Positions 50-45,177 of a stretch of 46,253 nt of DNA are shown piece by piece. Position numbers and translations under genes: made by a program. Numbering within the stretch: position 1 is the stretch's first letter; the number at the start of each line of letters is the position of its first letter. The stretch is from positions 1-46,253 of IMG/VR virus record IMGVR_UViG_3300047508_000185; one strand, written 5' to 3'. Source of the DNA: a virus. The notes beneath the pieces were generated by a model that searched no databases, had not been told where the DNA came from, and saw nothing but the letters and a program-made list of their open reading frames with translations.

Positions 50-574
50 GCTTAAATTTGCGTCATCGGCTCCGAACGTTGGAGTGGTGGCGGTTTTATC
101 GAAGCTGAACGCTGTCGGTGATGTGTTTGTAAGTTTTATCGTGGTTCCGGCAATCGGCAGCGTGGCCGTAATCGTCCCAGTCCCGGAAGTGGTTAGGCTG
201 GCCCCGGTGCCCACCACCATTGCCGCAGTCGTATTCGTCCCGCCCGTGATCGCGTTAAAAGCCGTCCCTGCCGCACCACTGCCGCCAAGCGTTACCGTGA
301 ATTGCTTGAAACTCGGTGCTCCCAGAAATACCTGATACTGCGCTGCCGCCGCAAAGAACCCAAACCCCCCTCCAGGTCCAATATTAGACGGATTGGAAAC
401 GGGTGCCGCCAGCCCAACATCGCTGAAAATGTTCGAAGGTGTCGGACAGGGATTCGCCGTCGAAATCGGGCACACGAGGATCGTAGTATTCGGGAACGAA
501 CTCGGCAGCGACCAGAAGAACCCCTGCCCCCAAGCGCTTCCACTCAACAACAACAACCAGAGTAACTTTTTCAC
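1..574 (-). CDS. Exported virion-like protein, N-terminal part (continues at 46204-45837)
   Basis: This is the 5' part of a 313-residue protein that crosses the circular joint. The start is GTG at 574, overlapping the portal stop (GTGA). Residues 1-17 form a clear Sec signal peptide: MKK, then a Leu/Trp-rich core, then AWGQ. The rest is Gly/Ser/Thr/Ala-rich and probably all beta, as in phage fibre or surface proteins, with a few Cys. The 191 codons to the joint have no stop. A dispersed palindrome lies inside the gene at 376-389. The function is unknown. A signal peptide is unusual for a gene directly behind the portal, so the product may be displayed at the cell surface during infection or may be a domesticated host protein. 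Confidence 0.75.
   Translation of the reverse strand, partial: MKKLLWLLLLSGSAWGQGFFWSLPSSFPNTTILVCPISTANPCPTPSNIFSDVGLAAPVSNPSNIGPGGGFGFFAAAAQYQVFLGAPSFKQFTVTLGGSGAAGTAFNAITGGTNTTAAMVVGTGASLTTSGTGTITATLPIAGTTIKLTNTSPTAFSFDKTATTPTFGADDANLSAGTITTSANGSQMFSL
376..389. promoter_or_regulatory. Dispersed palindrome, site 1
   Basis: GTCCAATATTAGAC. On the minus strand it reads GTCTAATATTGGAC, the same asymmetric variant seen at several other sites. It lies inside a coding region and encodes S-N-I-G. Confidence 0.55.
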
Positions 575-2970
575 TGTGTCATCCTCCGTACCCCTGCACC
601 GTTCCCACTCGGCGGTTGTGGCTTGTGAGGTCGAGCCGCTTGCCCCTTCTCCGCGCGCTGCTGCCTGACTTGTGGCGACTGGGGAATTTGGCCGCCTTGC
701 TTGCCACCCTGCTTCCCACTATCCCCGGAGGGCTGCTTGCCCTGAGGTAACCCGCCTTGGCCTCCAGGAGTCCCGCCAGCCGCACTTTGGCCTGCTGCCT
801 CCCCTGACCCCTGTGACATCGCCTGCGCCTGCTGCATGCGAATCTGGTTCATTACGTGCATCTGCATGTGCTGCTTGATGACCTGCCTGATTTGCAGGTT
901 CTGAGGATCTCTCCCAAGATCCGAGTTCAGCCACTGCCGGCAGATGTCGATATGCACAGCATCGTTATCCACAATCAACTCAGGCTGGATGACCTGCATG
1001 CTCTGGGTCATGAGCTCGATTTCTTCCCACTGCACTTTCTGGTCCCCGTACAGGTTGTCGAGTTCCCTGGGGAGGTGAAATAACTCCATTGACTTCGCTT
1101 TCACTCTGGGGTCCTGCGGGTCGAGCATGCCCGAGGCAATGGCTTGGGACATGGAATCCTGCTGGCCAGGGTCAATGGGGAGGACTCTCGTAACGATCTT
1201 GATGCGGTCCATGTCGATGGCCGCGCCTTTCAGCTTCTCAAACTCCCAGCGGCCGTTGATGCCAAACACCGAGTGCACCCGCTCATCGAGCCAGTTCTCC
1301 GACGCCAGTTGCAAAGTCTGTCTCGCCCACAAGGCGTCAGCGGTTTTCCACAGAGCCAGTTGGGGGCTGAGGGCTGAATCGGACTTGGCACTCGCTGCTT
1401 CCTGGCCGCCCCAGGTATTGACACCCTCTTCGTGCTGGCCTACGGCCGCAGGTGAGACTTTGGCGTGAAACTGCATGTCGGTCAGGTGCGCGGTTCTCCA
1501 CTGCCAGGTCTCGTTCGAGAGCGGCATGGAGTTGATCTGGTGGAAGGCGTCGCTTACAGGTTTTCCAGCGGCTTTGACTTCGATCAGCGTCGACGGGTCA
1601 TTGATGATGTTGTTCTTATCAATTCGTTGAGAATCAATTCCAAGGATCGGCGCCGAGTTGTATCCCTGGTTCCGCATGATGAGTCGATCGGTTTCATCGA
1701 GTTTGAGCTGTCCGGGGATAACGTCGTCGTCGCCGTCTCCCCAGATCCGGCCGGGCACGGGGATGAAGACGTAATGGGTCCAGTGGTTTTCGATGGTGTC
1801 ATTTCTGGCCTCTAGGAGTGTGTCTCCGGTCTTGCTGGCATAGAGTCCGTCCGGGAATTTCTTGACCATCTCGGGATCGAAGAAGTACAAGCTGGGCCTA
1901 AGCCATCCTTCAACGAGGAGTGCTTTGGCGGCGGCAGTTGCTCGTTCGTACCATGCGGCATATTGCGTTGGATCTCCGGGCAGATCGGCCAGGCTCTGCA
2001 TGTAGATGAGGCCGAGGTCCCCACCGGTGGAGTAGGCTTCTCCTCCGCCTTCGGCTCCGACCGAGAGCTTGATTTTCGGAAAGGCCGATTGCAGGCCCAG
2101 GCGGTCAACCACACGATTCCGAATAAGGAAAGGCGCATGCCAGAGGTCATACGAACTGCTCCTGAGATAGATTTCGAGGGGGTTGACCGCTTCCGTCATC
2201 AACTCCCCTTTGGGATACTTTACTTCGCCGGTTTGCGTGGGGACGCGACTGGTAACCGGGGGCGTCGCTTCGACGGGGCCTTGACAGCCGGGACACTGCT
2301 CGTGGGTTCCTTCCATGGGTCCGCAGTTGGAACACTGGCTGCCTCCGGGCGAGAGAAGGATGTCGCGATCTTCGTAGACCGGGGCTGCCACGTAACCGTA
2401 TCTGGGATCTTTTGAGTAGTAGGCGTAGCGGAAGGAATTCCCGAAGAGTCTGAGGTTGATGGCTTCGAGCACCCGGAGGTAGTCATATTTCACCGTCTGC
2501 TTGATGATTTCTAAAGCCGTTTTGGCAGCCTTGGTCGCCGCCTGCGCTTCCGCATCGTCGTTCGAAGGAATGGGCTCGATCAGAGGCTCATTCTGGATAT
2601 AGGCTTTGACCCCGTACAGCACCAGCGTCCGGTAGTAGTTGTTGGGGAAAGCATAATCCCCGGAATCCTGCTGCAGCACATCCCAGGCAACGTTGATGTC
2701 GGACCACTCCAGTTCGTGGTAGCCCATATAGAACAGGCAGTTTCGAAACCATTTTCTAGCGAATTGAATTTTCTCAAAAGATCCTTCTCGCCAATAGTAG
2801 TCAACCAACCATAAAACGCGCTTCTCTAATGTTTCTCCTAATGGGTAGCCACGCGCTACATCCTGCGCTTCCGGTTTTTCGGTTTTGGTACTTAGAACTT
2901 TATCTTTGCCTTTAAAGAAATCGGAGACCTTACCTCCCAATCCCGTGATAAGACCGCCGCTAGCTGGCAT
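571..2970 (-). CDS. Portal protein
   Basis: The protein has 799 residues from ATG 2970. That start has GAAGG about 6 nt upstream and overlaps the endonuclease VII stop; an upstream ATG at 3036 is less likely. The size, the place after TerL, and the acidic and aromatic N-terminal half fit the large P22-type portal family, which forms the dodecameric DNA-entry ring of podoviruses. A four-Cys zinc ribbon sits at about residues 213-229 (CSNC...CPGC). The last 80 residues are Gln/Gly/Lys-rich and disordered, like the barrel or tail extension of long portals. The stop is coupled to the next gene by GTGA. The assignment rests on size, composition and context rather than on a signature motif. Confidence 0.75.
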   Translation of the reverse strand: MPASGGLITGLGGKVSDFFKGKDKVLSTKTEKPEAQDVARGYPLGETLEKRVLWLVDYYWREGSFEKIQFARKWFRNCLFYMGYHELEWSDINVAWDVLQQDSGDYAFPNNYYRTLVLYGVKAYIQNEPLIEPIPSNDDAEAQAATKAAKTALEIIKQTVKYDYLRVLEAINLRLFGNSFRYAYYSKDPRYGYVAAPVYEDRDILLSPGGSQCSNCGPMEGTHEQCPGCQGPVEATPPVTSRVPTQTGEVKYPKGELMTEAVNPLEIYLRSSSYDLWHAPFLIRNRVVDRLGLQSAFPKIKLSVGAEGGGEAYSTGGDLGLIYMQSLADLPGDPTQYAAWYERATAAAKALLVEGWLRPSLYFFDPEMVKKFPDGLYASKTGDTLLEARNDTIENHWTHYVFIPVPGRIWGDGDDDVIPGQLKLDETDRLIMRNQGYNSAPILGIDSQRIDKNNIINDPSTLIEVKAAGKPVSDAFHQINSMPLSNETWQWRTAHLTDMQFHAKVSPAAVGQHEEGVNTWGGQEAASAKSDSALSPQLALWKTADALWARQTLQLASENWLDERVHSVFGINGRWEFEKLKGAAIDMDRIKIVTRVLPIDPGQQDSMSQAIASGMLDPQDPRVKAKSMELFHLPRELDNLYGDQKVQWEEIELMTQSMQVIQPELIVDNDAVHIDICRQWLNSDLGRDPQNLQIRQVIKQHMQMHVMNQIRMQQAQAMSQGSGEAAGQSAAGGTPGGQGGLPQGKQPSGDSGKQGGKQGGQIPQSPQVRQQRAEKGQAARPHKPQPPSGNGAGVRRMTQ

Positions 2971-3742: not shown

Positions 3743-3950
3743 GGCGTCCTCCACAACACTCTCTGCCCAGCCAGCGTTCCTGCCCATGCACCGTATCCAT
3801 ATACACCAGATCCGCGGACACCCGCCCGCAGCGACTGCAGCGCCCCTGCTTGCCGCTCGATGGCATCAGATTTTTGATGGGAATTTTCGGAGCCGCGTCG
3901 AGTTGGGCTTTCTCCGCGGCAATCTGGGAGTCCAAATTTGGATCAGCCAC
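3735..3950 (-). CDS. Small zinc-ribbon protein
   Basis: This start, GTG at 3950, gives 71 residues and overlaps the upstream stop (GTGGCTGA). ATG 3998 would add 16 residues and overlap that gene further. The C-terminus has CSRCG and a later CCG, a probable zinc site. The dispersed palindrome at 3930-3943 lies inside the first codons and encodes P-N-L-D. Unknown function in the packaging gene group. Confidence 0.45.
   Translation of the reverse strand: MADPNLDSQIAAEKAQLDAAPKIPIKNLMPSSGKQGRCSRCGRVSADLVYMDTVHGQERWLGRECCGGRHG
3930..3943. promoter_or_regulatory. Dispersed palindrome, site 2
   Basis: GTCCAAATTTGGAT, a 12-bp perfect palindrome core, over the start region of the gene beginning near 3950. 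Confidence 0.7.
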
Positions 3951-7135: not shown

Positions 7136-7149
7136 GTCTAATTTTGGAC
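7136..7149. promoter_or_regulatory. Dispersed palindrome, site 3
   Basis: GTCTAATTTTGGAC lies in the short gap between the genes at 7151 and 7122, a few bases upstream of the ribosome binding site of the latter. It could block transcription or translation there. Confidence 0.7.
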
Positions 7150-7618: not shown

Positions 7619-8179
7619 TCACAAAACAACGTCATCAAACCCGACAAAGTCTTTAGAATCAGCGTTTCGTGCCGAACCTTGGGATACAGCGCTAGATGCT
7701 TCGATCAGCTCCCCGCGGATGTCCTGCGGATCGTTTGCTAATTGCTTGCGAGTTCGTTTTCCCTTGATAACAGGGGCTTGCACGATCATCGTATTGACTG
7801 CAAGCTGTAAACGCTGGTCCGCGCCTAACACGGAGCCATTGGGAGCCTTTAAATCCGGGTTCACGGCAACAAAAGGTTTTCCTAATATTCTGCATTCCAC
7901 GTGTTTACGCATATCCCAACAGAGGGCAAGGTCCTTTTTTGCATATGCTTGTCTGTAGAGCGCTGCCGGCTCAACAATTTCGTCGAAAGCTTCTAAGACT
8001 GCAATGTTGTGGCGAATTCCTAAGTCTTTGAGCCAAAGGGGCTTGCGACCGCCCTTGTGGCGCACCTTGAACGTACTATGGCGCCGACCATCGTACTTGC
8101 CTTTCATTGGCTGCTCGGGAGTAGAGGCGGGATGGGGGTAAACGCGTTTGGGGATGCCCGACGTGGGACTAGCAGGCAT
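7619..8179 (-). CDS. Candidate small terminase subunit
   Basis: The protein has 186 residues and is the first substantial gene of the leftward late unit. It has a basic, Pro-rich N-terminus (KVRHKGGRKPLW), then a helical middle (NIAVLEAFDEIVEPAALYRQAYAKKDL). Position and size suit TerS, the DNA-recognition subunit, but no diagnostic HTH was seen, so this is inference from context. The start is uncertain: neither ATG 8179 nor ATG 8107 has a good ribosome binding site. Confidence 0.5.
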   Translation of the reverse strand: MPASPTSGIPKRVYPHPASTPEQPMKGKYDGRRHSTFKVRHKGGRKPLWLKDLGIRHNIAVLEAFDEIVEPAALYRQAYAKKDLALCWDMRKHVECRILGKPFVAVNPDLKAPNGSVLGADQRLQLAVNTMIVQAPVIKGKRTRKQLANDPQDIRGELIEASSAVSQGSARNADSKDFVGFDDVVL

Positions 8180-8493
8180 TACGCACGTGGGAGGAGCGTT
8201 GGTCAGGCAAGGGGTAGCGGATGAGAAGACCGAATGGGGGTCTGGGAGGGAGAAGCTTAGGGATTACCGGATTACTGAGCCGATTTTGGTTGAGGAGAAA
8301 TGCTTTTACCGGGCGTAAACGGATTTTGTGGAGTCCGGCCGGCTCTGCAGCATTCTTGCGCAGTAAGACTTGAGCGCGCGACCTGGACACATATTCCCGC
8401 GGCCGGTCTGAAAGTTTCTGGCCATCTGATAAGACACCAATTCGCAATGGATTCGCAAGCAACTGGAATTCCGCCAGCGCACGGAGTAGGGAC

Positions 8494-8507
8494 GTCCAAA
8501 TTTGGAC
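8494..8507. promoter_or_regulatory. Dispersed palindrome, site 4 (perfect)
   Basis: GTCCAAATTTGGAC, a perfect 14-bp palindrome in the control region about 130 bp upstream of the early promoter. Confidence 0.75.
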
Positions 8508-8634
8508 TTGGGGCCAGGTCCTTCCACGGACGAGAGAAAGAATCTGCCCCAAGTCGAGGGCGAATCGAGTCAACAGCTTACTCAGTAGTTTACACACCCT
8601 GTCAAAATTTCTTATTGTGTCCGTAATTATTCCA

Positions 8635-8664
8635 TTGACACGTTTATGGATGTACGTATATATT
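8635..8664 (+). promoter_or_regulatory. Early promoter, sigma70-like
   Basis: TTGACA at 8635-8640 is followed by TATATT at 8659-8664 with an 18-bp spacer; an alternative TATATA gives 16. It points at the leader gene at 8703 and the early operon. A dispersed palindrome lies about 85 bp downstream of the -10 (8747-8760), where a bound protein could stop elongation. Confidence 0.7.
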
Positions 8665-8702
8665 CGTGACAGTCGACAACCAATCGACGGGGAGCAGGAA
8701 CA

Positions 8703-8801
8703 ATGAATCATACGGAACAAGGCACGATTGAGTCCAGCGTTAGGGCGTCCAAAATTGGACGTTCTAGCGAAGGATTCAAACCCGTCCGGACAGGACGTTA
8801 A
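8703..8801 (+). CDS. Leader peptide carrying a palindrome
   Basis: The peptide has 32 residues and is the first frame after the early promoter. ATG is preceded by GGGGAGCAGGAACA. The peptide is basic and has no recognised domain. The palindrome at 8747-8760 lies inside it and encodes S-K-I-G. The next gene starts 13 bp after its stop. It could be a regulatory leader or a real small protein. Confidence 0.45.
   Translation: MNHTEQGTIESSVRASKIGRSSEGFKPVRTGR
8747..8760. promoter_or_regulatory. Dispersed palindrome, site 5
   Basis: GTCCAAAATTGGAC, fully conserved outer halves, downstream of the early promoter and inside the leader frame. Confidence 0.75.
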
Positions 8802-8814
8802 ACACGAGGACACT

Positions 8815-10115: not shown

Positions 10116-10129
10116 GTCCAAATTTGGAT
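10116..10129. promoter_or_regulatory. Dispersed palindrome, site 6
   Basis: GTCCAAATTTGGAT, intergenic, ending 32 bp before the ATG at 10162. This is a classical operator or roadblock position. Confidence 0.75.
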
Positions 10130-11311: not shown

Positions 11312-11604
11312 ACTCGTTACGCTGGAGTCTTAATACCGCTGAGGAAGTGATCAAAGTTGCCCAATTACTTTTGGGGGCTCGCGGTTATGTTGTGTTCCGA
11401 TATCCCAATTGCACAGAGCAGCGTCTAGGGCAGATTGAACACAACCTCTGGACGGTTCCTGTTGATCAGCCGTTTGTGCTTGTTGCCAAGACGACCCACG
11501 AAGATTGGGAAGAACAGCGAAAGCTTGCGGCTCCGGTGGTGAATCGCCCGTACACGCCGATGAGCGCAGAGGCAATGCATTACTACCGGGCGGTGACGGA
11601 ATGA
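11308..11604 (+). CDS. Hypothetical early protein
   Basis: The protein has 98 residues, with a GTG start overlapping the previous stop (GTGA) and its own stop overlapping the recombinase ATG (ATGA). It is alpha/beta, with a helix at about 9-24 followed by strands. No recognised domain. Coupling to the recombinase suggests co-production. Confidence 0.6.
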   Translation: MNSLRWSLNTAEEVIKVAQLLLGARGYVVFRYPNCTEQRLGQIEHNLWTVPVDQPFVLVAKTTHEDWEEQRKLAAPVVNRPYTPMSAEAMHYYRAVTE

Positions 11605-12260
11605 CTCCAGCCGTGCTCTACATGCGCTGCTCAGGGATGGGGCAGGTCGATGGAGATACTTGGGACCGGCAACAAGATGCTTGCCGCAAGTATGCCGACG
11701 CACATGAGATTGAAATTGTCGCTGAATACCGCGATGAAGGCTTAAGCGGCAAGACGGAGCTCGAAGGCCGCGCTGGGTTAGCAGCCTGTTTAGAACGTGT
11801 GGAAAACAACGGAGTCAAGCTGGTACTGTGCGAGTCCGCTGACAGACTGGCGCGCGATTCCATGATTGCCGAGTTGATCGTCCGACAATTCCAGAAGGCA
11901 GGCGTCCGCGTGATTGCCGGGGGCGTGGATCTCACGGCTGGCGACGACTCAAATCCGACCGCCAAGCTGATTCGGCAAATCCTGGCATCCGTGGCCGAGT
12001 TCGACCGCTGCGTCACGGTACTCAAACTCAAAGCCGCGCGTGATCGGATGAAGGCAAAAACTGGCAAGTGTGAGGGGCAAAAGGCTTTTGGCCATTACCC
12101 TGGCGAAGCTGTAACCCTGACCATCATCCAAGACCTGAGCAGGAAAAGACAGACTCCCACCCAGATTGCACGGCGCCTGAACGAGCTCGCCATCCCCGCT
12201 CGACTGGGCGGGAAGTGGCACGGAGCGTCAATTCACAAGATTTTGCGGAGGAAAGTATGA
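11601..12260 (+). CDS. Serine recombinase (resolvase/invertase-like)
   Basis: The protein has 219 residues. It has an N-terminal resolvase domain with LYMRCS (catalytic Ser about residue 10), a DRQ..CRKYA helix, DEGLSGKTELEGR, and LVLCESADRLARD (conserved Asp/Arg cluster). This is followed by the long E helix and a short C-terminal helix-turn-helix (TPTQIARRLNELAIPARLGGKWHGASIHKILRR) like the start of the 'recombinase' domain. It is much shorter than large serine integrases (450-700 residues), so it could be an invertase, a resolvase or a minimal integrase. No attP was identified. Its start overlaps the upstream stop. Confidence 0.88.
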   Translation: MTPAVLYMRCSGMGQVDGDTWDRQQDACRKYADAHEIEIVAEYRDEGLSGKTELEGRAGLAACLERVENNGVKLVLCESADRLARDSMIAELIVRQFQKAGVRVIAGGVDLTAGDDSNPTAKLIRQILASVAEFDRCVTVLKLKAARDRMKAKTGKCEGQKAFGHYPGEAVTLTIIQDLSRKRQTPTQIARRLNELAIPARLGGKWHGASIHKILRRKV

Positions 12261-12451
12261 GTCTAAAATTGGACGTCTATGAGACCAGCGGCCGGCTTAC
12301 TGTCCAAGGCCGCAACCATGTTGTCAAACTGCTCCTGGCCAAGTGGGAAAACGCTCAGAATCGCCCTCAGAGCCCTTGGTGGCGGGATATGGTGTCTAGC
12401 CTCTGGAAAATCGCTAAGTCGGGTTGGAGGGGCGTCTGGCCCGCATCCTAG
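12257..12451 (+). CDS. Small Trp-rich protein with palindrome at its start
   Basis: The protein has 64 residues, coupled to the recombinase by ATGA. The palindrome at 12261-12274 covers codons 2-6 and encodes S-L-K-L-D. It is basic and contains several Trp. The 3' end converges on the minus-strand gene ending at 12414 and overlaps it by 38 bp. No recognised domain. Confidence 0.55.
   Translation: MSLKLDVYETSGRLTVQGRNHVVKLLLAKWENAQNRPQSPWWRDMVSSLWKIAKSGWRGVWPAS
12261..12274. promoter_or_regulatory. Dispersed palindrome, site 7
   Basis: GTCTAAAATTGGAC, at the very start of the gene following the recombinase. Confidence 0.7.
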
Positions 12452-12867: not shown

Positions 12868-13323
12868 TTAAAACGGCAATTCCGAGTCTTTCACCGGCTG
12901 CCGCACGTAAGGCTTCGATGCCGGCAGAACCTCAGTGACTGTGACCTCGACCCGCGGCGGGTTCCCGTAAGCCTTTGTGGCAAAGAGCTCTGTGACCTGG
13001 CTGTCATCCGCAAAGGCTATACCAGTCAACGAATCCAAAATCAGACGGATGTTTTTATCGAGATCGGGACGGGTTGTTTTCTCCGCGAGGGCTTTGACCG
13101 ACTTGGGCCTGGCGAAGTAGAAGGCAACCATAATCCGGATCGGTACACCTTTGCCGGCAGGCTGGCCGCCCTTCATAGCTTCAAGGCATGTCTGCGAAAC
13201 CTGCTGGCGCCATGGCTTGGTTTTCTTGCTGGCATTGACCAGCACAGCTCGAGTCCAACCCTTCGGGACAAAAGCTTTCAGGCTGCCCTGGCTAACCGGC
13301 TCGCCCAGTACCGTGAACGTCAC
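12868..13323 (-). CDS. rusA: RusA-family Holliday junction resolvase
   Basis: The protein has 151 residues from GTG 13323, overlapping the upstream stop (GTGA); an in-frame extension to 13407 is unlikely. The start MTFTVLGEPVSQGSLK fits the family's first strand. The core PDLDKNIRLILDSLTG then IAFADDSQV (about 86-110) holds the catalytic acidic residues. RusA dimers cut four-way junctions during recombination and replication. Unusually, the protein ends in DSELPF, much like the SSB C-terminal tip (DDDIPF). The neighbours are the other genes of the minus-strand replication cluster. Confidence 0.9.
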   Translation of the reverse strand: MTFTVLGEPVSQGSLKAFVPKGWTRAVLVNASKKTKPWRQQVSQTCLEAMKGGQPAGKGVPIRIMVAFYFARPKSVKALAEKTTRPDLDKNIRLILDSLTGIAFADDSQVTELFATKAYGNPPRVEVTVTEVLPASKPYVRQPVKDSELPF

Positions 13324-13532
13324 AGCTTGCCGCCTTGCAGGATGCCCAGCTTTGGGGCTGGAAGGGGTCTGGGACCGCCTGTTGCCCTCAAGTTGGCTAC
13401 AAACCACTCAGCCATCTCAATCGAAGCAAATTTCGCCAGCAAATGCCCTCCCTGCGAACCAACCTCCCTGGCGTAGACTCCGAAGCGCAACAACGACTGA
13501 CCCTGCGAATCAAGCCTTACGTCCAAAATCAT
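13320..13532 (-). CDS. Hypothetical protein
   Basis: The protein has 70 residues from ATG 13532, overlapping the previous stop (ATGA) and linked to RusA by GTGA. It is a compact alpha/beta protein (ILDVRLDSQGQSLLRFGVYA...MAEWFVANLRATGG). No family. A recombination or replication accessory by location only. Confidence 0.6.
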   Translation of the reverse strand: MILDVRLDSQGQSLLRFGVYAREVGSQGGHLLAKFASIEMAEWFVANLRATGGPRPLPAPKLGILQGGKL

Positions 13533-13852
13533 TTCGCCCTCACGCTCCCGGCTTTTACGTTGCACTGGTAGCACAGACAGGAATTCAACCACGATCCGCG
13601 TTCGTCCTCGATCCGGTCATCCTGCCTGGCTCCGCCCATTCCCCTGCCATCATCGTGCTGGAACGTGGCTGAGTTGAAATAGCCTTGCGTTTCCCGCATC
13701 GGGTTCTGACAGGTACCACAGCGCCAGCCTTGCCGGGCTGCCATGGCGTTGCGGCGCCGTTTGTACTCTGCTCGGCCTTTCTTGTTGGGCAAACAGACTT
13801 CCCGGTTGTCGTCGTACTTGCGGTAAATGTCGTCGACCAGGATGGGAATCAT
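13529..13852 (-). CDS. HNH-like zinc protein
   Basis: The protein has 107 residues from ATG 13852 (ATGA overlap). CGTCQNP near residue 50 and CLCYQC near the end form the zinc knuckles. Between them, FQHDDGRGMGGARQDDRI is a variant HNH signature (His-Asp before a loop). It is probably a small HNH nuclease built into the operon by tight overlaps, so it may be an integral rather than a homing gene. The catalytic pattern is not perfect, hence moderate confidence. Confidence 0.6.
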   Translation of the reverse strand: MIPILVDDIYRKYDDNREVCLPNKKGRAEYKRRRNAMAARQGWRCGTCQNPMRETQGYFNSATFQHDDGRGMGGARQDDRIEDERGSWLNSCLCYQCNVKAGSVRAK

Positions 13853-14418
13853 TCCGGCAACCAACTCACGCAGTACTCCAGAAACGTAGTCAGCGAGGCC
13901 GTAGGGTCGACCAGCTTGTAAGCCTCATAGGCACCCTCGATCCGCTCCCACTGGCTCACACTGAATTTCAGTTTCACCGTCACAATCTGTTCGATGAGTT
14001 GTTCCGGATGCGACTCCTGCAGGGCCTCACGGAATTCCTTTGGCGTTTTCTTGGCTGCGTCAATCACTTCCGGAGAACGTCTAATTTTGGACGAGAGTTG
14101 TTTCAGAACCCCAGCCGAGCCCAGCGGGATTTGCGCCAGTTCTTCCGGAGGAATGTCCACACTCAATTCCTTGTACCGGCCCATGACCAGATAGAGATAG
14201 CTGCGCGACCGCGGAGCCGCATCACACAGCCAGGACTCAAACGAGTGAAAGCCTAAAACTTCCCAGTCGCGGTCTCGATCCACTTCCACGCAGCAACGTG
14301 CAATCTCTGTCCAATCTGCCCACTGCCTTTCAAACTCGCGCACGAAGTTGTCACGGTTCCGCGCCCGCTGCAGGATTAGCAGGTGTTCCGCAACCGATAC
14401 GAAGTCTGTAGTGGCCAT
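13849..14418 (-). CDS. Hypothetical helical protein, possible DNA-binding
   Basis: The protein has 189 residues from ATG 14418, overlapping the previous stop (TAATG). It is mainly alpha-helical. A central segment (LGFHSFESWLCDAAPRSRSYLYLVMGRYKEL...) resembles the helix-turn-helix-rich middle of phage ParB-like or replication accessory proteins, followed by a C-terminal helical domain. This is a weak resemblance. The palindrome at 14079-14092 lies inside the gene. Confidence 0.6.
   Translation of the reverse strand: MATTDFVSVAEHLLILQRARNRDNFVREFERQWADWTEIARCCVEVDRDRDWEVLGFHSFESWLCDAAPRSRSYLYLVMGRYKELSVDIPPEELAQIPLGSAGVLKQLSSKIRRSPEVIDAAKKTPKEFREALQESHPEQLIEQIVTVKLKFSVSQWERIEGAYEAYKLVDPTASLTTFLEYCVSWLPE
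14079..14092. promoter_or_regulatory. Dispersed palindrome, site 8
   Basis: GTCTAATTTTGGAC, inside the 189-residue protein gene, encoding S-K-I on the minus strand. Confidence 0.7.
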
Positions 14419-14687
14419 TAGACTTGTCTCTTCCCGTAGAGCGCTTCCCACTCCTGAAGTTTTTTCAAATCCGTCTTGATGCCTTTTTTGTCGGTTGTGC
14501 CAAGTTGCCGGCGAATCTCATCGAGCCAGATTTTATAGGGGTGATACTTTCTTTCACCGAAGGGATACGCTTCCCGCAACCGTGCGCGTGTTGCTTTCAT
14601 ATCCTCGGGCGTGTTCCATGAACACTGATCCAAGATTTCTGAGATTATTTCCGCCGCCGAGCTGCGCCAATTAGAACGGGATGTCAT
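14418..14687 (-). CDS. Hypothetical protein
   Basis: The protein has 89 residues. It is helical and basic, with a Pro-Phe-Gly-Glu turn (AYPFGERKYHPYKIWLDEIRRQL). It overlaps its neighbours on both sides. The pattern is typical of small replication-module proteins, but no family was recognised. Confidence 0.6.
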   Translation of the reverse strand: MTSRSNWRSSAAEIISEILDQCSWNTPEDMKATRARLREAYPFGERKYHPYKIWLDEIRRQLGTTDKKGIKTDLKKLQEWEALYGKRQV

Positions 14688-14910
14688 TGTCTGTGATTGG
14701 TTCGATCGGTTCGACTCTGGCCTTTTTGGCCGCCAGTTCGCGCGCCTGTTGCTGCAACTCCGCTCTGCGCTTTACCGGGTCATCCTCGGCGCCCGGAATC
14801 TTGCGAATCACCCCACCCCAGCGCGCCAGCTTCGCCAGGAAGCGTTCCTTCGCTTCCTGATACGCTTTGGTTTTTATGTGCGCTTCGAAAGAATGTTCTT
14901 CAGCCATCAT
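14671..14910 (-). CDS. Small helical protein with SSB-like C-terminal tip
   Basis: The protein has 79 residues. ATG overlaps the previous stop (ATGA) with GAGGAGTCA upstream. It is a charged helical protein without an OB fold, yet it ends in TDNDIPF, nearly identical to the bacterial SSB tip (DDDIPF) that docks RecG, RecQ, PriA, exonuclease I and the polymerase chi subunit. It may therefore recruit, or compete for, host replication and repair proteins. RusA in the same operon ends in a similar sequence. Function inferred only from the tip. Confidence 0.6.
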   Translation of the reverse strand: MMAEEHSFEAHIKTKAYQEAKERFLAKLARWGGVIRKIPGAEDDPVKRRAELQQQARELAAKKARVEPIEPITDNDIPF

Positions 14911-15194
14911 TGACTCCTCAGTGGCGGCCGCGCCAAGTAGGCATCCAGCGCCCGCGAATACTTCGGATCCGGTGCGTCTAAAATTGGACTCACAGGCTTG
15001 CGCCCAGAGAACTTGGCATCGTTCCTAATCCACGTGTTCAACGCCAGATTCCAGTTTACAAATTTGTTGCCCTTGCTCATGTGATGGTCCCGGAAAGCTT
15101 CTACCGCTTCCCTCAGATCCACTCCGTACCTCAAAGCATTGTCGCAGTTGTTTTGATTCGGCTGGAAGTCAGGAGGAAACGATGTGCCTTTCAC
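14907..15194 (-). CDS. DnaT C-terminal-like DNA-binding domain protein
   Basis: The protein has 95 residues, with a GTG start overlapping the DUF559 stop (GTGA). It begins FPPDFQPN, then GVDLREAVEAFRDHHMSKGNKFVNWNLALNTWIRNDAKF. This is the F-x2-(H/Y)-x2-K-G...W...W-x-R-N pattern of the C-terminal DNA-binding domain of DnaT and phage replication initiators. In most relatives it follows an N-terminal winged-helix domain, which is absent here. It may be a stand-alone domain or the remainder of a gene cut by the upstream RNA/DUF559 element. A palindrome lies within (14976-14989). Confidence 0.65.
   Translation of the reverse strand: MKGTSFPPDFQPNQNNCDNALRYGVDLREAVEAFRDHHMSKGNKFVNWNLALNTWIRNDAKFSGRKPVSPILDAPDPKYSRALDAYLARPPLRSQ
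14976..14989. promoter_or_regulatory. Dispersed palindrome, site 9
   Basis: GTCTAAAATTGGAC, inside the DnaT-like gene; the minus-strand frame reads S-P-I-L-D there. Confidence 0.7.
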
Positions 15195-15661
15195 AGGCGC
15201 TCCATGATCCTGCCCAAGACGCCGGCCCTATCCTTCAAAACCTCGTCATTCGTGAAGCACAATGTTCTAAAACGGTGCCGCTCTAAATGCTCATCCCGGC
15301 GTGCATCATACTCGCGCCTCGATTCGTGAATCTCTCCGTCAATTTCGATCACCATCTTGTGTCGAAACGAGCAAAAATCTGCAATGTAGCCATAGAGCAC
15401 AACCTGCGCCTGAAAAATAGGAGACAATTGATTCAACTTGGCCCAAAGATGCTTCTCAGCCGGAGTCATCCTCTGGCGCATTTGCTCCGCGAAGATTGCC
15501 TTCTCGGGACTCGATAGGTCCGCGCATCGCTGGATCGCACGATGAGTCTTTTTGACAGCACGGATGCACTTAAGGCATTTGATCGTTTTGCCTTTGGGAT
15601 ACTGCGACTTTCGCTTCGGTTTGAAACAAGAGATGCAATCGTAGAGTTCTTGAGTAGCCAT
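15191..15661 (-). CDS. DUF559 / very-short-patch-repair-like nuclease
   Basis: The protein has 156 residues. The N-terminal zinc ribbon (CISCFKPKRK...KCLKC) is followed by a basic linker and a DUF559 domain of the PD-(D/E)XK fold: MTPAEKHLWAKLN, then YIADFCSFRHKMVIEIDGEIHE, then RRDEHLERHRFRTLCFTNDEVL. The acidic residues of ADF and EIDGE are the probable metal ligands. The family is related to Vsr and to homing nucleases of the EDxHD type. The frame stays open for 162 codons upstream, but that part is better explained as structured RNA. The protein begins at the 3' end of that RNA. Confidence 0.85.
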   Translation of the reverse strand: MATQELYDCISCFKPKRKSQYPKGKTIKCLKCIRAVKKTHRAIQRCADLSSPEKAIFAEQMRQRMTPAEKHLWAKLNQLSPIFQAQVVLYGYIADFCSFRHKMVIEIDGEIHESRREYDARRDEHLERHRFRTLCFTNDEVLKDRAGVLGRIMERL

Positions 15662-16098
15662 GCCAATCCCCGAGTTCGTGGAAGTTCGCAGAGCACGGCC
15701 TTTACAACCGTGCGAATATGCCTGACCCGTCGTTAGGGTTAGCCTCTTCGGATGGCTCACCAGCTCCCGCTTACCACTCGCGAACGAGTGACGGCCCGGT
15801 AACGTCGCTGGATCGGTACGCCACACCCGTTGCCATTTCAGCCTCAGAGCAGACCTTGCGGATTGCCCTTGGTTTCGGTCGGCTTCACTCGACGCCGCTA
15901 CATCTTGGCGCTGTGTGCTTGGCGGGTGCTGCCCTGTGATTTCAGGACAATCGACCTTGGTCAACGTGCATCTGTCACCAGACGCAGATTTCCCGCGAGG
16001 ACTGGACCTTCCGAAATGGGGGAGAATGTCATCGCAGGACCTTAGCATTCGAGGGGTCCGGAAGGCCCTGCGAAGAGTAAACCGGAGCACCCTCGAAT
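15662..16098 (-). ncRNA. Candidate large structured RNA upstream of DUF559 gene
   Basis: There is no convincing gene in about 600 bp. On the minus strand there are several strong pairings: a 9-bp stem (16098-16090 with 16055-16047) enclosing a 5-bp TCCGG/CCGGA stem; a loop segment TCGCAGG complementary to CCTGCGA just 3' of the stem, a likely pseudoknot; TGTCCTG/CAGGGCA (15949-15943 with 15936-15930); GGTGAGCC/GGCTAACC (15761-15754 with 15744-15737); CACTCG-TTCG-CGAGTG near 15790-15775; and TTCGCA/TGCGAA near 15716-15690. The 3' end abuts the DUF559 start codon. It resembles mobile RNA-plus-ORF elements such as HEARO/omega RNA in layout, but identity is unproven. Confidence 0.5.
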
Positions 16099-16188
16099 TC
16101 TGTACAACATCTAACCGCGCCAGGGGTGGTTTGTCAAGTAGCAGCATTTTGGCCTAACCGGGACCGGACTGGGGCCGAAGGAAAACGT

Positions 16189-16252
16189 TATATTCCCGTT
16201 CACAAACTTTTGCAAGAAAAATCTTGCAACGCTTGTAGTGCCGTGTTATTCC
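16189..16252 (+). promoter_or_regulatory. Promoter and operator before the RHH gene
   Basis: The perfect inverted repeat TTGCAAGA-AAAA-TCTTGCAA (16210-16229) overlaps a candidate -35 (TTGCAA, 16224-16229) placed 17 bp from TATTCC (16247-16252). Another AT-rich -10-like TATATT lies at 16189-16194. The RHH gene starts at 16263 without a Shine-Dalgarno sequence, so the mRNA could be nearly leaderless. The repeat is a good candidate for the autoregulatory operator of that RHH protein. Confidence 0.5.
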
Positions 16253-16262
16253 TCGTGGTGCT

Positions 16263-16546: not shown

Positions 16547-16554
16547 TTTTGGAC
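16541..16554. promoter_or_regulatory. Dispersed palindrome, site 10
   Basis: GTCTAATTTTGGAC, overlapping a stop codon and ending 16 bp before the next ATG (16571). Confidence 0.75.
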
Positions 16555-16570
16555 GTGAACAAGGAGACGA

Positions 16571-29598: not shown

Positions 29599-31291
29599 AG
29601 ATCACTCCGATGATGCCGTTTGCGACCTTGGTTATGGTGCCGAGCGTAGCGGGCACGGCCGCGCCCGAAATGCCGTTCGCAGGCGATCCGATGCGGGCGA
29701 CGTTCTTGTTTAGCTGGTTATCCGCTGCTCCCGAGTAGCCGTTGCCATCCAAACCGACGCCGGTCGTGTCCGCCTGAATGAACACGTAGTAAAGCCCTGG
29801 GTTGATGGTGAAAGGTGTGCCGAGCGCTGTACTAATCACGCCAATCGCCGCGCTTGACGCGCCGCCATTTGAGGAGTTTGGAACAAGCGTACCGCTGCTG
29901 TCATAGAGGGCGATGTAGACCTTTGACGCTGCGACGGCCGTGTTGACTTGGAAAATGATGTTGCGGACGGTGATCGGATAGAGGACCTGAGTAGCATAAA
30001 CAAACTTGTTCGTGGTGAGGCCGAGCGTCCCGCCACCCGTGGCGGGGGGAGCCATGCCCCAGAACGAGCAGAAATACCCAATCCCAGCGGTTTCGAACGT
30101 GGTCGGCATCTGTGAGGCCGCCAATGTTCCAGCGAGATCAGTAAAGTTGGGTTTTACAACCGAGATGTCCGCGCCCACGCTATTCTGCCGAAGGAACTGA
30201 CTTGCTCCTCCCGTTGCCGAGAGATCCGCATGGGTTCCGCCTCGCGCTAAAGCTAATTGCCCTGTTGTAATCTTGGCTACGTCCAAATTTGGAATGTCAG
30301 CGGCAACCAAGTTCCGCGCCGAGATAACTTGGCCAGCATCTTGTGCCAGCACCGAGGTCGCGCCGCCCGATGCGGACAGATCCACCCCGGTGCCACCCCT
30401 TGCAAGAGCGAGTAACCCGCTGGTGATTTTCGAAGCATCCAGATTCGGTACATCCGCTGCAATGATCGACCGTGCCGAGATTACGTGGGCAGCGCTTTCC
30501 GCCAGAAAAGCCGTAGCTGATCCCGCAGCCGATAGGTCAACCCCAGTTCCCCCGTGCGCCAGAGGAACGAAGTTTTCCCCGCCAAACACTCCTGCACTGT
30601 TGAACTGAATGTCGCCGTTGACCCCTCCGGGAGAACTTGAGGTTGGTCCAGGACCGGGAGCTACCCCACTGCCACCACCACCACCACTTCCGCCAGCCGA
30701 GCCTGCTCCTGAGCCTGTAACAATCCCCGCCGTGCCGACGATGGCTGCAAGCGTGATGTGCTCCCGGAGAATCTGAATTTGCTGCGCTTTGATGTTGTAC
30801 GCCGCGAAGGCTACGGGAGGGGTTCCGACTGAAACATTGGGAATGGATACGAAGCGAACGACTTTGTTGATGTCATCCCAGTAGGGGTAGAAGAAGTAGC
30901 GCGTGGCCGCACTGAGTCCGGTAACTACAAACGGCGAGCCGACGATGGTTGGCCCGGCAACCGTGTTGTCATCCCGGTAGATAGTCAGCCGCTCTGACCC
31001 GTTCGTGCCGTCCCAATAGAACGTGATCTGGGTTCCGACTGCGTTGTAGGTGATAGCTGTAACCACTGAGCCCGGCCGGCCGCCGAGGGAGATGAACTGA
31101 GGGCCGGTGGGGTTGATGATGTCGGGGCCGAAAGAATATGCGCTCTGCGCGGGAGGAACGCTGCCCTGACTTAGCAACTGGTTCAACTGGGTCAGGATGT
31201 AGTCGAGACACTGCTTTGACTGGCCGCCGAGCGCGGGATCATGCGGGAACTGCGACCAAGGCTTTGAGCGGGGCAGGAGGGCTTGGGTCAC
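29588..31291 (-). CDS. Tail fibre protein with 52-residue repeats
   Basis: The protein has 567 residues, GTG start overlapping the previous stop. An N-terminal part is followed by a fibronectin-III-like domain (about 75-140), a Gly-rich hinge (about 193-210), and three tandem repeats of about 52 residues (244-398) of the LARGGTGxDLSA...VISARxxxAADxPNLDxxKIT type. A C-terminal receptor-type domain comes last (about 420-567). These repeats are characteristic of phage tail fibres. It probably mediates host recognition. Confidence 0.82.
   Translation of the reverse strand: MTQALLPRSKPWSQFPHDPALGGQSKQCLDYILTQLNQLLSQGSVPPAQSAYSFGPDIINPTGPQFISLGGRPGSVVTAITYNAVGTQITFYWDGTNGSERLTIYRDDNTVAGPTIVGSPFVVTGLSAATRYFFYPYWDDINKVVRFVSIPNVSVGTPPVAFAAYNIKAQQIQILREHITLAAIVGTAGIVTGSGAGSAGGSGGGGGSGVAPGPGPTSSSPGGVNGDIQFNSAGVFGGENFVPLAHGGTGVDLSAAGSATAFLAESAAHVISARSIIAADVPNLDASKITSGLLALARGGTGVDLSASGGATSVLAQDAGQVISARNLVAADIPNLDVAKITTGQLALARGGTHADLSATGGASQFLRQNSVGADISVVKPNFTDLAGTLAASQMPTTFETAGIGYFCSFWGMAPPATGGGTLGLTTNKFVYATQVLYPITVRNIIFQVNTAVAASKVYIALYDSSGTLVPNSSNGGASSAAIGVISTALGTPFTINPGLYYVFIQADTTGVGLDGNGYSGAADNQLNKNVARIGSPANGISGAAVPATLGTITKVANGIIGVIFES
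30098..30562 (-). repeat. Three tandem fibre repeats (about 156 bp each)
   Basis: Repeats begin at about residues 244, 296 and 348 of the fibre. The first two are closely similar in protein; the third diverges after 25 residues. Repeat 2 alone contains the dispersed palindrome. Confidence 0.7.
30281..30294. promoter_or_regulatory. Dispersed palindrome, site 13
   Basis: GTCCAAATTTGGAA, in fibre repeat 2, encoding P-N-L-D. The same P-N-L-D in repeat 1 is written with other codons and is not a site. Confidence 0.65.
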
Positions 31292-33507: not shown

Positions 33508-34584
33508 TTATTTGGCTTTCGTCAGCGACCAGCCACTTGGCAGGGGAGAACTGCCATTGGATTTGTGAGGCTTTCCCTTTGGATCGTAGACCACCGTCCC
33601 TGCCGGTACCGGGGTTGCTCCACGTGGAGCAGTTGGCTGGGTTGGCTGAGTGGGTTGCCGGGTGGCTGTCTTCGTAGGTTGTGCTCCCGCTGCCGCCTGA
33701 ATGTCTGGTCTGAGTCCGGGGATAAGGTCCAAAATTGGATGTGCCTGCACCCAAGCATCCTGCGAAGCTGCCGATTTGACGTCCTCTGTCGCCTGAATCT
33801 TAGCCGAGTTCTCATCCATCCCAGCATCCACTCTGGCTTGTGCAACCCGGATGACAGCTTGGTCGAACCACTGCTTGGCCTTCAGCGTCCTATCAGCGAT
33901 CGAGAGTCTGTCCCAACCCTGCTTCAATTTCTCCAGGCCCTGCGTCTGCTGCATGGCTTCCCGTTTGGCGTTGGTATCGGCATTCTTGGTCGAGGCCGCT
34001 GCGCGCGTGAGGGAAGCTTCCGCCATGAGAGGCTTTGAGACCATTCCGGAGGCTGCGCCCTCCGCCGTGCCTTCCTCGCCAAACTGCTTCTGCAGGGATT
34101 CGATCTGCGCGGCCTTGGCTGCCCGCTGTGTGTTATAACGCGCCACTCCTGGCCCGTAGGCAGTCTCCTGAACTGCCTGCCCCATTCCCGTTGACGATAG
34201 CCCCAGCAGGAGCGCCTTGCCGATGTCCCCGAGCAGGTTGCCGGCATCGTGTCCGAATCCCTGGCCCTTGACCGGAGCCATTTTCATCCACTTCTCATCC
34301 ATCAACCCGCGTTTGGGCTGATTCGCGGGGTCGGACATGGTCTCCTGTTCCCCGCGCGCCTGCGAGAGTTGTTGAGCAAGCGCCTGCCTTCTGGCCTCAT
34401 CGGAGGAAAACGCCTGCCCGCCCATCTGCGAGTTCTGGACCATGGACTGCATCATCGGATCGGTCCCCGGATCGGGAGGCGGCGGAGCCACGGGGTTAAC
34501 CTGAGGAATCATTCCGGGACCCTGAGCGCTTAGTTGCGGGTCGCCGTAGGTTGTTGGATCGTCTTGCATCTGATCGTTTGCCAT
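33508..34584 (-). CDS. Internal virion protein
   Basis: The protein has 358 residues from ATG 34584, with AAGGGGGCC upstream. Gln/Met-rich disordered N-terminus, a helical middle (about 130-270), Pro/Thr-rich tail. Located among ejection-type proteins. A palindrome (33727-33740) lies inside, encoding H-P-I-L-D. Confidence 0.6.
   Translation of the reverse strand: MANDQMQDDPTTYGDPQLSAQGPGMIPQVNPVAPPPPDPGTDPMMQSMVQNSQMGGQAFSSDEARRQALAQQLSQARGEQETMSDPANQPKRGLMDEKWMKMAPVKGQGFGHDAGNLLGDIGKALLLGLSSTGMGQAVQETAYGPGVARYNTQRAAKAAQIESLQKQFGEEGTAEGAASGMVSKPLMAEASLTRAAASTKNADTNAKREAMQQTQGLEKLKQGWDRLSIADRTLKAKQWFDQAVIRVAQARVDAGMDENSAKIQATEDVKSAASQDAWVQAHPILDLIPGLRPDIQAAAGAQPTKTATRQPTQPTQPTAPRGATPVPAGTVVYDPKGKPHKSNGSSPLPSGWSLTKAK
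33727..33740. promoter_or_regulatory. Dispersed palindrome, site 14
   Basis: GTCCAAAATTGGAT, within the internal virion protein gene. Confidence 0.7.
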
Positions 34585-34588
34585 GGAT

Positions 34589-35305
34589 TTAGGCCCCCTT
34601 GAGCGCGGCAGCCCCACTCATCGCCGACCCAGCACCGCCCATCAGGCTACCAATCCCGCTCGCGATTCCTTGGAAGTTCTGAATCCCCGACTGACCCGCT
34701 GCCGGCGTCGTCCCGAGCGAGGTCCCTCCCAGCAACTGTGTCGGATTAAACATCGAGGCCATGGACGCCATGCCACTTGCACCCTGCGCCTGCAGGTTCT
34801 CGTTCTGAAAGAGATTCTGCAGATACTGCTCGGCCAGGCTTTGAGCTCCCTGCTGATTCATTCCCCCGACCATCGCCGCGCGCGCGCCCGAAGATGCAGA
34901 ACCGTATCCCGAGGCGTTCAGTTGGTCCTGAGCTTGCCCCAAGGCATTCTGGTTCTGCTGGTTCCCCTGTGTGAAAGCTTCCTGCTGTTTCTGCTTGTAG
35001 TAAGGCGAACCGAGGTTCATCAGGTTCTTGTAATAGTCCGCGGCCTGCCCGCCATACTGTCCCATGAGGCTTGCGAACTGCGGAGCAAGCTGGTTCTTGA
35101 ACTGCCCAGCCACTACGTTGTCCAGCATCAGGTTCTTGTTCAGAGAACCCGTTGACCCGAAGTCGCCAAAGTTTCCCGGATTGGCGCCGGGGCCGCCGCC
35201 AAACGAGCCATGTTCACCCTGGCCATAGTTTGGATCGAGGCTAATAGGGTTGGTGGACTGAATCGGGTTCGCGCCCCAACCGCTTCCAGTGAGAGGATCC
35301 GGCAT
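34589..35305 (-). CDS. Internal virion protein, Gly/Ala/Gln-rich
   Basis: The protein has 238 residues, with GGAAGGGGGATGTAA before the ATG. Low-complexity N-terminus rich in Gly and Asn, central Gln-rich helix (YKQKQQEAFTQGNQQNQNALGQAQDQLN), hydrophobic Gly/Ala/Ser C-terminus. Typical of podoviral ejection proteins that form channels. No enzymatic motif. Confidence 0.65.
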   Translation of the reverse strand: MPDPLTGSGWGANPIQSTNPISLDPNYGQGEHGSFGGGPGANPGNFGDFGSTGSLNKNLMLDNVVAGQFKNQLAPQFASLMGQYGGQAADYYKNLMNLGSPYYKQKQQEAFTQGNQQNQNALGQAQDQLNASGYGSASSGARAAMVGGMNQQGAQSLAEQYLQNLFQNENLQAQGASGMASMASMFNPTQLLGGTSLGTTPAAGQSGIQNFQGIASGIGSLMGGAGSAMSGAAALKGA

Positions 35306-40075: not shown

Positions 40076-40708
40076 CTAGGTTCTCGGTTGCGGTCCTTTC
40101 GGTGGTTCAGGTTTCTGAGTCAGCAGGTGTGCCAACTGGTCAGCCGATTCCTTTCGCGCCGCCCTCATGGAATCCGCAATGGCCACGGAGATGGTCTCGG
40201 CGGCCTTCGCGCCAGGATCGCGCAGCGCCTGCAGGGCGTCGACGGTGTACGGCTTGTCCATCTTGAGCACTTCGTAGCACTCATCCACATACGGGCTGGG
40301 ATCGTAGACACCCTGTCTTGCCTTGGCCATGTCTCTCTGGTTCTCGAAGAACTCAATCTGCTTCTTGCGCCACTTCAGATTCAGATCGCGCGAAACTGGT
40401 TCGAGAGCGGCTTTCTCTTTCTCGTCGGGCTCATGGTCGAGCATGATGACGCCCAGTTCGGCAAACTGCGAGGTCACAACCGGCATGTAACGTCTCATGG
40501 GGATTTCGACTTCCTCCCCCTGGCGGTCTTTCCAGTCCTTCCTGCGGATCGTGCTCAGGGATTCCGGCAGCTTCAACCACTGCTTCTCGGGAATGAAAGG
40601 CAGCGCAATCCCGCCCCAGCGAATATACGAGCCATCAGGCGTGTAGCGAGGCTTGCCGAGAAACTTGGGGTTCGGCAGCGCCTCGCTCGAATATATGAAA
40701 TAGCTCAT
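40076..40708 (-). CDS. Hypothetical structural protein
   Basis: The protein has 210 residues; GGAGGCAACTG precedes the ATG, overlapping the previous stop (TGATG). N-terminal beta part (SYIRWGGIALPFIPEKQWLKLPE), then long charged helices. Present between capsid accessory and adaptor genes. No family recognised. Confidence 0.55.
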   Translation of the reverse strand: MSYFIYSSEALPNPKFLGKPRYTPDGSYIRWGGIALPFIPEKQWLKLPESLSTIRRKDWKDRQGEEVEIPMRRYMPVVTSQFAELGVIMLDHEPDEKEKAALEPVSRDLNLKWRKKQIEFFENQRDMAKARQGVYDPSPYVDECYEVLKMDKPYTVDALQALRDPGAKAAETISVAIADSMRAARKESADQLAHLLTQKPEPPKGPQPRT

Positions 40709-41088
40709 CAGTTGCCTCCAAACACAGAATCGTAGTTCTCGCGGTATCTTCGGCTGGTTCCCACCGTCGCGCGTTCCTGACCAAACCCAGCTCTGATGAC
40801 AGGTCCCGCTGCTTCCGTCATGTCGTCCAAAAATAGACTCTCATCGCGTTCACGTTTGCGCGCTCCGTGACCCGTCAGACTCTGGCAGAACTGACGCACT
40901 CCGGATTCGCGATTCGAGTAAGACTCGCGATCGGCGGCCTTGAGTTCCTGAATGTCGGTTTCGGTGATTTCGGCGTGGTCAGTGGTTCGGACGCGGTAAG
41001 ATTCGCCATTGTCGGCCTTGCCGACGACATCCAGCTTGCCATCGTCCCGCTTGACCGTCGAGAGTCCCCAGTTACTTGGCAGTTCCAT
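40708..41088 (-). CDS. Hypothetical protein
   Basis: The protein has 126 residues, adjacent to the upstream stop (TAA-ATG). N-terminal beta stretch, a DRESYSNRESGVRQF helical middle, Arg-rich end. The palindrome-like site at 40825-40838 lies inside. Likely virion-associated. Confidence 0.5.
   Translation of the reverse strand: MELPSNWGLSTVKRDDGKLDVVGKADNGESYRVRTTDHAEITETDIQELKAADRESYSNRESGVRQFCQSLTGHGARKRERDESLFLDDMTEAAGPVIRAGFGQERATVGTSRRYRENYDSVFGGN
40825..40838. promoter_or_regulatory. Dispersed palindrome, site 15 (degenerate)
   Basis: GTCCAAAAATAGAC, which reads GTCTATTTTTGGAC on the minus strand. The outer halves are conserved; the centre is not symmetric. Confidence 0.45.
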
Positions 41089-43021: not shown

Positions 43022-43023
43022 GG

Positions 43024-44304: not shown

Positions 44305-44319
44305 TTTCGTGTCCTCAGG

Positions 44320-45177
44320 TTACCGCGCTGTGCGTTCCAAGGCTTTGGCAAGAGCGTCTTCGGTGGCTTCCCAACTGTCGCTTGCGCCAGCGGGAGGCTT
44401 GAAGTATTCGCTCGGCCCGGACTCGAATTCCGCGAAGCCGCGCCCTTGAGCGCGTTCCCGTGCGGTCTTTTCCGATTCCGAAGCTGCCTTACGGTCTCCA
44501 GCCCACTCATCGAGAATCCCTTTCATGGTCCGTGGAATATCCGCAAAGTTGCCATTGGAGATTCGCTGGACTACGTTGGGGTCGCTCGAGAGTTCCGCCC
44601 CTAACCGGGCGCGGATGGCTTTGGTTTCCGACTTGGTCAGTTTGAGTTCCTGAATGTCCTTCTGTCCAAGAAGGTCATCGACGCGCGAGTCGTATCGCTT
44701 CTGTGCCGCTGCGAAGGCAATGGCACTTTCCCGCCTCTGTTCCCTGGTTTCCGAGGCTGCGACCTTTTCGCGTAGCGCTTGTAGTTCCCGCACAAGATCG
44801 TTCGTCTGGGAGTCGCCCGAGGGCTTGCCAGAGTCCTTACCTCTGTCGAGCAGGTGCTTATTCTGTTCGAGGAAGGTGTCAGACACGGTCTCTAGGAATC
44901 GGTTTCCTATGGCCGGATCAGTGCGTTGGAGCATCTTCACAAATTCTTGAGGATCAGTCTCAATCTGGTTCCTGATGGCGGCCAGAGCTTTGGGCGCCTC
45001 CATCAACGCATTGAGTTGGTCTTTCGAGTATCCAGAATCGAGCAGGATCTGGCCAATTTCGGCGGCGTCCAAATTTGGAGGAACAGCGGCAGCCGCACCA
45101 GGCTCGGCAGGCTTCGCAGGTTCTGCTGGAGTTGCGTCCGTGACAAACGTGTCACGCAAGGTAGCGTCGGTTGCCAT
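44320..45177 (-). CDS. Scaffolding protein
   Basis: The protein has 285 residues immediately upstream of the capsid gene. Ala/Pro-rich disordered start, then long charged helices (ELQALREKVAASETREQRRESAIAFAAAQKRYDSR) and a basic C-terminal tail (LAKALERTAR), the usual capsid-binding end of scaffolds. It guides procapsid assembly and is lost later. A palindrome lies at 45067-45080, encoding P-N-L-D. Confidence 0.78.
   Translation of the reverse strand: MATDATLRDTFVTDATPAEPAKPAEPGAAAAVPPNLDAAEIGQILLDSGYSKDQLNALMEAPKALAAIRNQIETDPQEFVKMLQRTDPAIGNRFLETVSDTFLEQNKHLLDRGKDSGKPSGDSQTNDLVRELQALREKVAASETREQRRESAIAFAAAQKRYDSRVDDLLGQKDIQELKLTKSETKAIRARLGAELSSDPNVVQRISNGNFADIPRTMKGILDEWAGDRKAASESEKTARERAQGRGFAEFESGPSEYFKPPAGASDSWEATEDALAKALERTAR
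45067..45080. promoter_or_regulatory. Dispersed palindrome, site 16
   Basis: GTCCAAATTTGGAG, in the scaffold gene; third of the sites read as P-N-L-D. Confidence 0.65.

Follow-up and report, generated by a model that had tools for sequence, protein, structure and literature searches.

The DNA analysed here in full (the window, 46,253 nucleotides) is a virus record of IMG/VR, IMGVR_UViG_3300047508_000185, of a soil phage, along which 17 copies of a 14-bp palindrome are dispersed. In our reading, to which a probability of about 0.6 is given, these palindromes are bound by a protein of the phage itself, the product of 13849-14451, which most likely silences transcription, or forms a roadblock to it, throughout the genome; this putative site-binding protein is hereafter named the reader. 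The system would be one of operators scattered along the genome and a global DNA-binding protein that the phage encodes.

The window was scanned with a symmetric weight matrix, and 17 sites scored between 16.6 and 24.7 bits, the next best position reaching 10.1 bits. All 16 sites listed in a first-pass annotation of this DNA were found again at their coordinates, and a 17th one (ATCCAAAATCAGAC at 13033), absent from that list, was clearly above background. The pattern RTCYAAWWTTRGAY occurs 12 times exactly and 17 times with at most one mismatch, whereas a codon-preserving shuffle control, in which each called gene had its synonymous codons permuted and the intergenic stretches were shuffled, gave a mean of 0.07 exact occurrences (maximum 1) and of 0.56 with at most one mismatch (maximum 3). 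When similar 14-mers were counted de novo, GTCCAAATTTGGAC came out as the most repeated one in the window. Apparent hits in L023 and L025 in de novo palindrome searches were tandem repeats and were discarded. Ten of the 17 window sites lie within 7.1-17.4 kb, a subdivision that was made post hoc. The earlier claim of real, dispersed sites, often near gene boundaries, was borne out by the scan and by the gene placement, and the 14-bp palindromes are a real motif acting at the DNA level. Conservation in relatives, proposed earlier as a check, was found in the closely related genome G002, where four late-gene sites recur at the orthologous positions. Three of the four carry substitutions and can still be recognised as the motif; the sites of the early region turn over between the two genomes. 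The sites of the window are as follows.

376-389: GTCCAATATTAGAC, in a gene that is interrupted by the ends of the contig; the orthologous gene of G002 has a site at the same place (17094)
3930-3943: GTCCAAATTTGGAT, intergenic
7136-7149: GTCTAATTTTGGAC, 13 bp upstream of a minus-strand start
8494-8507: GTCCAAATTTGGAC, perfect palindrome
8747-8760: GTCCAAAATTGGAC
10116-10129: GTCCAAATTTGGAT, 32 bp upstream of the plus-strand gene at 10162
12261-12274: GTCTAAAATTGGAC, immediately 3' of the resolvase stop codon
13033-13046: ATCCAAAATCAGAC, within the RusA-like gene
14079-14092: GTCTAATTTTGGAC, within the candidate reader gene; the reader gene of G062 has a nearby site, in other codons
14976-14989: GTCTAAAATTGGAC, in gene 14907-15194; G002 also has a site in this gene, at a different place
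16541-16554: GTCTAATTTTGGAC, 16 bp upstream of the plus-strand gene at 16571
17342-17355: GTCCAAATTTGGAT, within the Sak4-like gene
21647-21660: GTCCAAAATCGGAC, intergenic (approximate gene calls)
30281-30294: GTCCAAATTTGGAA, in a tail-fibre-like gene
33727-33740: GTCCAAAATTGGAT, in gene 33508-34617; the orthologous G002 site differs by one substitution
40825-40838: GTCCAAAAATAGAC, in gene 40708-41088; the orthologous place of G002 carries an identical site
45067-45080: GTCCAAATTTGGAG, in gene 44320-45177; the orthologous G002 site is a perfect palindrome

The gene proposed to encode the protein that binds these sites is the following.

13849-14451, minus strand: candidate reader, 200 amino acids, predicted all-helical with a ParB/KorB-like DNA-binding fold and without the CTPase (cytidine triphosphatase) domain; likely ATG at 14418

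When the open reading frames of site-bearing contigs were searched with the reader as a single sequence, homologs were obtained in G002 (68% identity), in locus L137 of G019 (6e-16) and in locus L033 of G018 (1e-4). Both L137 and L033 had been fetched solely for containing the palindrome GTCCAAATTTGGAC, and the alignment of the reader with the G018 protein by hhalign (1.1e-5) indicated good homology. A tblastn search of INPHARED with the 13849 product returned only Tunturi_1 and Tunturi_2, two phages isolated on the acidobacterium Tunturiibacter psychrotolerans X5P2 and described as lytic (PMC11924767). Each of them carries 12 dispersed sites, mainly GTCCAATATTGGAC and close forms, and in each genome a search for over-represented palindromes, made without reference to the motif, ranked it first. 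Another hit of the protein searches, G062 (56% identity), contains GTCCAAAGTTRGAC three times in 60 kb, one copy lying within its own reader gene. G062 and the Tunturi phages were included because of the protein and not because of the sites.

In the genomes used as controls, absence of the gene went with absence of the sites, apart from weak matches. Neither sites nor a homolog were present in Tunturi_4, and Tunturi_5 (309 kb) gave one weak site match and no homolog; in G063, a relative of the Tunturi phages with 74% capsid identity, the reader gene is absent and the site match does not exceed background. Relatives of the window phage were sought with its capsid protein, which yielded 22 loci; a megablast of the whole window against INPHARED gave no match, and searches of IMG/VR with the terminase and with Sak4 gave no relatives. 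The closest ones by capsid, G001 and G002 (93-94% capsid identity), contain 6 and 14 sites, respectively, when one mismatch is allowed. None was found in the 14 further relatives searched, which together span about 415 kb and have a capsid identity of at most 84%; the reader gene was absent from those site-free relatives that were tested. When all open reading frames of the window were compared, 13849 alone was shared by four lineages with sites while having no counterpart in any relative without them. The reader gene and the sites thus appear to be gained and lost together in two separate virus families. Because motif and gene covary across unrelated phages, the 13849 product, and likewise gp50 of Tunturi_2, is predicted to bind GTCCAAWWTTGGAC-type sites, and this predicted pairing of protein and palindromes is well supported by genome comparison.

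The readers suggested by the first-pass annotation did not follow this pattern. The 45152 protein is present also in site-free relatives, the 8169-8813 frame matches G002 only, and neither the 16200-16562 frame nor 25645-26088 (minus strand), the small product of which carries a DNA-binding domain of LuxR type (GerE), has a match in the site-bearing G002. The sites might alternatively serve a host-encoded DNA-binding protein, exploited or tolerated by the phages, a possibility also raised earlier in the form of a host site borrowed by the phage. It would account for a motif that is common to several unrelated phages, two of which, the named ones, have the same bacterial strain as host. Nevertheless, a host-encoded reader is very improbable, because Tunturi_3, isolated on the same strain X5P2, has no sites (PMC11924767) and no reader homolog, and because the relatives of the window phage and of the Tunturi phages that lack the gene also lack the sites.

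The extent of the system was explored by scanning IMG/VR for the perfect palindrome and counting sites over whole contigs. Many sites were found in phages with unrelated genomes. With one mismatch allowed, there are 13 in G018, 7 in G019 and 20 in G020, three contigs that have genes in common, as well as 7 each in G050 and G017, and 6 in G022 together with 3 in G034. G021 and G061 contain two exact sites each. In G039 and G032, with 5 and 8 sites when one mismatch is allowed, a possible distant homolog is encoded (hhalign, 1.8e-4), an assignment that is tentative. Bacterial genomes were searched with the reader and the capsid protein and gave no relative, hence no host or prophage was found for the window phage. 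A different palindrome was observed in G016 (L169-L170; 74% capsid identity), one of the 14 relatives without sites, which contains eight dispersed copies of CCGTTTAAACGG, as compared with 0.05 expected at one mismatch. Sites of this type lie, for example, at 3183, 21929, 23807, 24768 and 25669, some of them 8-20 bp upstream of start codons, and no reader homolog was found in that genome.

Placement relative to genes was analysed for 112 sites from 11 genomes with a simple gene caller of our own, the calls of which are approximate. Sixty-four of the 112 sites are intergenic, as against 22 expected (p 2e-18, with sites treated as independent, which those of related genomes are not fully), and 30 of these 64 lie at most 50 bp before a start codon, as against 11 expected (p 5e-8, under the same assumption of independence). 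Numerous sites are located 10-20 bp upstream of a start, inside gaps of 27-40 bp. Such gaps leave no room for a promoter, and a promoter reading is disfavoured. The same position, ahead of ribosome-binding sites, would suit RNA hairpins (GUCCA-AAUU-UGGAC) controlling translation or processing. However, the changes on the transcribed strand comprise 32 stem-breaking C-A and 27 stem-keeping G-U, and hence show no selection for RNA pairing, and about 40% of the sites are intragenic; we therefore consider the hairpin explanation scarcely credible. No orientation of the sites was detected, the better half-site being upstream in 26 cases and downstream in 26 relative to transcription. A strand bias was noted in the asymmetric sites of Tunturi_1 and Tunturi_2, 6 of 7 and 5 of 6 of which, respectively, have their better half on the plus strand regardless of gene direction; a founder effect is a possible cause, given the relatedness of these genomes.

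The structure of the reader was modelled with AlphaFold2, which gave an all-helical model with a predicted local distance difference test score (pLDDT) of 81. In a Foldseek search with this model, the best seven PDB matches were ParB or Spo0J DNA-binding domains. Neither the ParB_N CTPase domain (PF02195) nor the ParA ATPase (PF13614) was detected in any of the 11 genomes searched. We infer, with less certainty than for the binding itself, that the protein has a ParB/KorB-type helix-turn-helix domain without the ParB CTPase domain, that it binds the palindromes through it, probably as a dimer, and that it silences at many places. Occupying many sites, mostly at or near gene boundaries, the reader would silence or block transcription and would in this way set the timing with which the phage operons are read.

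Several observations weigh against this reading. The Foldseek scores are weak (best E-value 0.8, template modelling score about 0.35), and the reader has no sequence match in Pfam or PDB. G017, G020, G022 and G034 contain sites and no reader homolog in the contig, although these records may be fragments. Membership of the protein of the G050 lineage is marginal (hhalign 0.004 versus 0.41 for a control), and its low-confidence model has no clear ParB match. The intergenic bias could be explained in part by coding constraint. Finally, Tunturi_1 and Tunturi_2 are plaque-forming and no integrase was found in them, which makes lysogenic silencing doubtful for these two phages.

The main rival to a silencer retains the same reader and assigns the sites to the architecture or handling of phage DNA (its condensation, packaging or marking, or the segregation of a prophage kept outside the chromosome), in the manner of Noc or ParB. 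The ParB-like fold, the numerous intragenic sites and the distribution in G018, G020 and the Tunturi phages, where sites cover the whole genome, point in this direction, as does the position of the reader gene amid replication and recombination genes. We regard an architectural role as unlikely but deserving of serious consideration, since it is opposed by the strong enrichment directly upstream of start codons, by the confinement of every site of G050 and G017 to one region of about 6-7 kb, and by the lack of ParA and ParB_N domains in the carriers searched.

The genes in the vicinity of the candidate reader are the following.

13529-13864, minus strand: small endonuclease VII/HNH-like gene, directly downstream of the reader gene; near the reader in G002, G018 and G019 too
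12868-13407, minus strand: RusA-like resolvase gene; near the reader in Tunturi_1 and Tunturi_2 as well
11505-12260, plus strand: serine resolvase/recombinase, the sole recombinase found in the window, which bears on lifestyle

Among the lifestyle genes, matches to a tyrosine integrase were found in G019 and G050, and the serine resolvase in the window, G002 and G018; Tunturi_1 and Tunturi_2 have neither. A further explanation takes the palindromes to be module-boundary or recombination sequences for gene swapping, or else the targets of the adjacent endonuclease or of a recombinase made by the phage. The placement at gene boundaries, the resolvase gene in three site-bearing genomes (window, G002 and G018) and the HNH/endonuclease VII-like gene that adjoins the reader gene in four contigs from two lineages would all be consistent with it. 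On the other hand, the resolvase has no match in the site-bearing Tunturi_1, Tunturi_2, G019, G062 and G050, the endonuclease gene has none in the Tunturi phages or G062, and the intragenic fraction of the sites is hard to accommodate, so that a recombination function has very little probability.

In layout, the closest known system is that of the stoperators of cluster A mycobacteriophages (L5, Bxb1), read by the Rep repressor, with which the present one shares many short dispersed sites and the occurrence of differing versions in related phages. The likeness to stoperators put forward in the first-pass annotation holds for a new palindrome that is dispersed and often located at gene boundaries, and fails as regards orientation. 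Cluster A stoperators are asymmetric 13-bp sites, mostly in one orientation relative to transcription (PMC6550527), unlike the palindrome described here, with its 26 versus 26 half-sites and its all-helical, ParB-like candidate reader. The repressor bound at stoperators halts transcription elongation and keeps up lysogeny; for the Tunturi viruses, lytic cycles are described (PMC11924767). In logic, the closest system is KorB, a CTP-dependent sliding clamp that silences plasmid genes (PMC11790492). RK2 KorB and its OB operators resemble the phage system in that several operators are read by a ParB-family DNA-binding protein, a likeness that rests here on a weak fold match, and differ from it in operator sequence and in the CTPase domain (ParB_N), which was not found in the reader or in the genome. 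Noc, also of the ParB family, binds specific sequences (Noc-binding sites, NBS) scattered over the Bacillus subtilis genome (PMC4331003); it is a chromosomal, CTP-dependent protein with an action on cell division (PMC8429893). The scattering of sites is common to both systems, but the phage reader lacks the CTPase domain and the site is different. A ParABS reading is disfavoured, since ParA and ParB_N were not found in the 11 genomes searched and the sites are spread over the whole window and over G018, G020 and the Tunturi phages rather than clustered as parS near one locus. Prophage N15 encodes a protein of ParB type, SopB, which has the SopA ATPase as partner and several inverted repeats as dispersed centromere sites. 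It is similar in combining dispersed sites with a phage-encoded protein of ParB type, a putative assignment here, and different in that the N15 sites are few and no ParA was found here. The motif core TCCAAATTTGGA appeared in the literature searched in one unrelated paper only, and no earlier description of such a phage-made genome-wide switch or silencer was found there.

Other features of the window and of its relatives were recorded. Window positions 1-574 and 45837-46253 both match one G002 gene (16912-18183), with a short repeat at the joint; for this reason the genome in this record is probably complete, permuted and cut open within a gene. The recombinase differs between close relatives, the window encoding a Sak4-like annealing protein (16989-17897, plus strand) and G002 an ERF-type one (L149, 89-970). 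The 318-amino acid frame at 15191-16147 (minus strand) has at its C-terminus a DUF559 domain, which we take to be a Vsr-like endonuclease. A long GCC-rich repeat, readable as a Gly/Cys-rich or Ala-rich protein, was observed in G002 (L149, 6311-7251).

Genome-wide dispersed operators of phages are best known from actinobacteriophages, and here one motif recurs among soil phages that are not related to each other, accompanied by a single family of small proteins. At roughly even odds, a stand-alone ParB/KorB-type protein without CTPase and dispersed 14-bp operators would represent a new class of genome-wide phage regulation, present in several unrelated soil-phage lineages including lytic phages of Acidobacteriota and gained or lost as a unit, with the CCGTTTAAACGG palindromes of G016 suggesting further specificities. 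The motif and the protein family provide a testable protein-site pair, and in Tunturi_1 and Tunturi_2, with the cultured host T. psychrotolerans X5P2, binding, silencing and the effects of gene loss are directly measurable. If the reading is true, it would show what a ParB-like DNA-binding fold is capable of without the CTP clamp.

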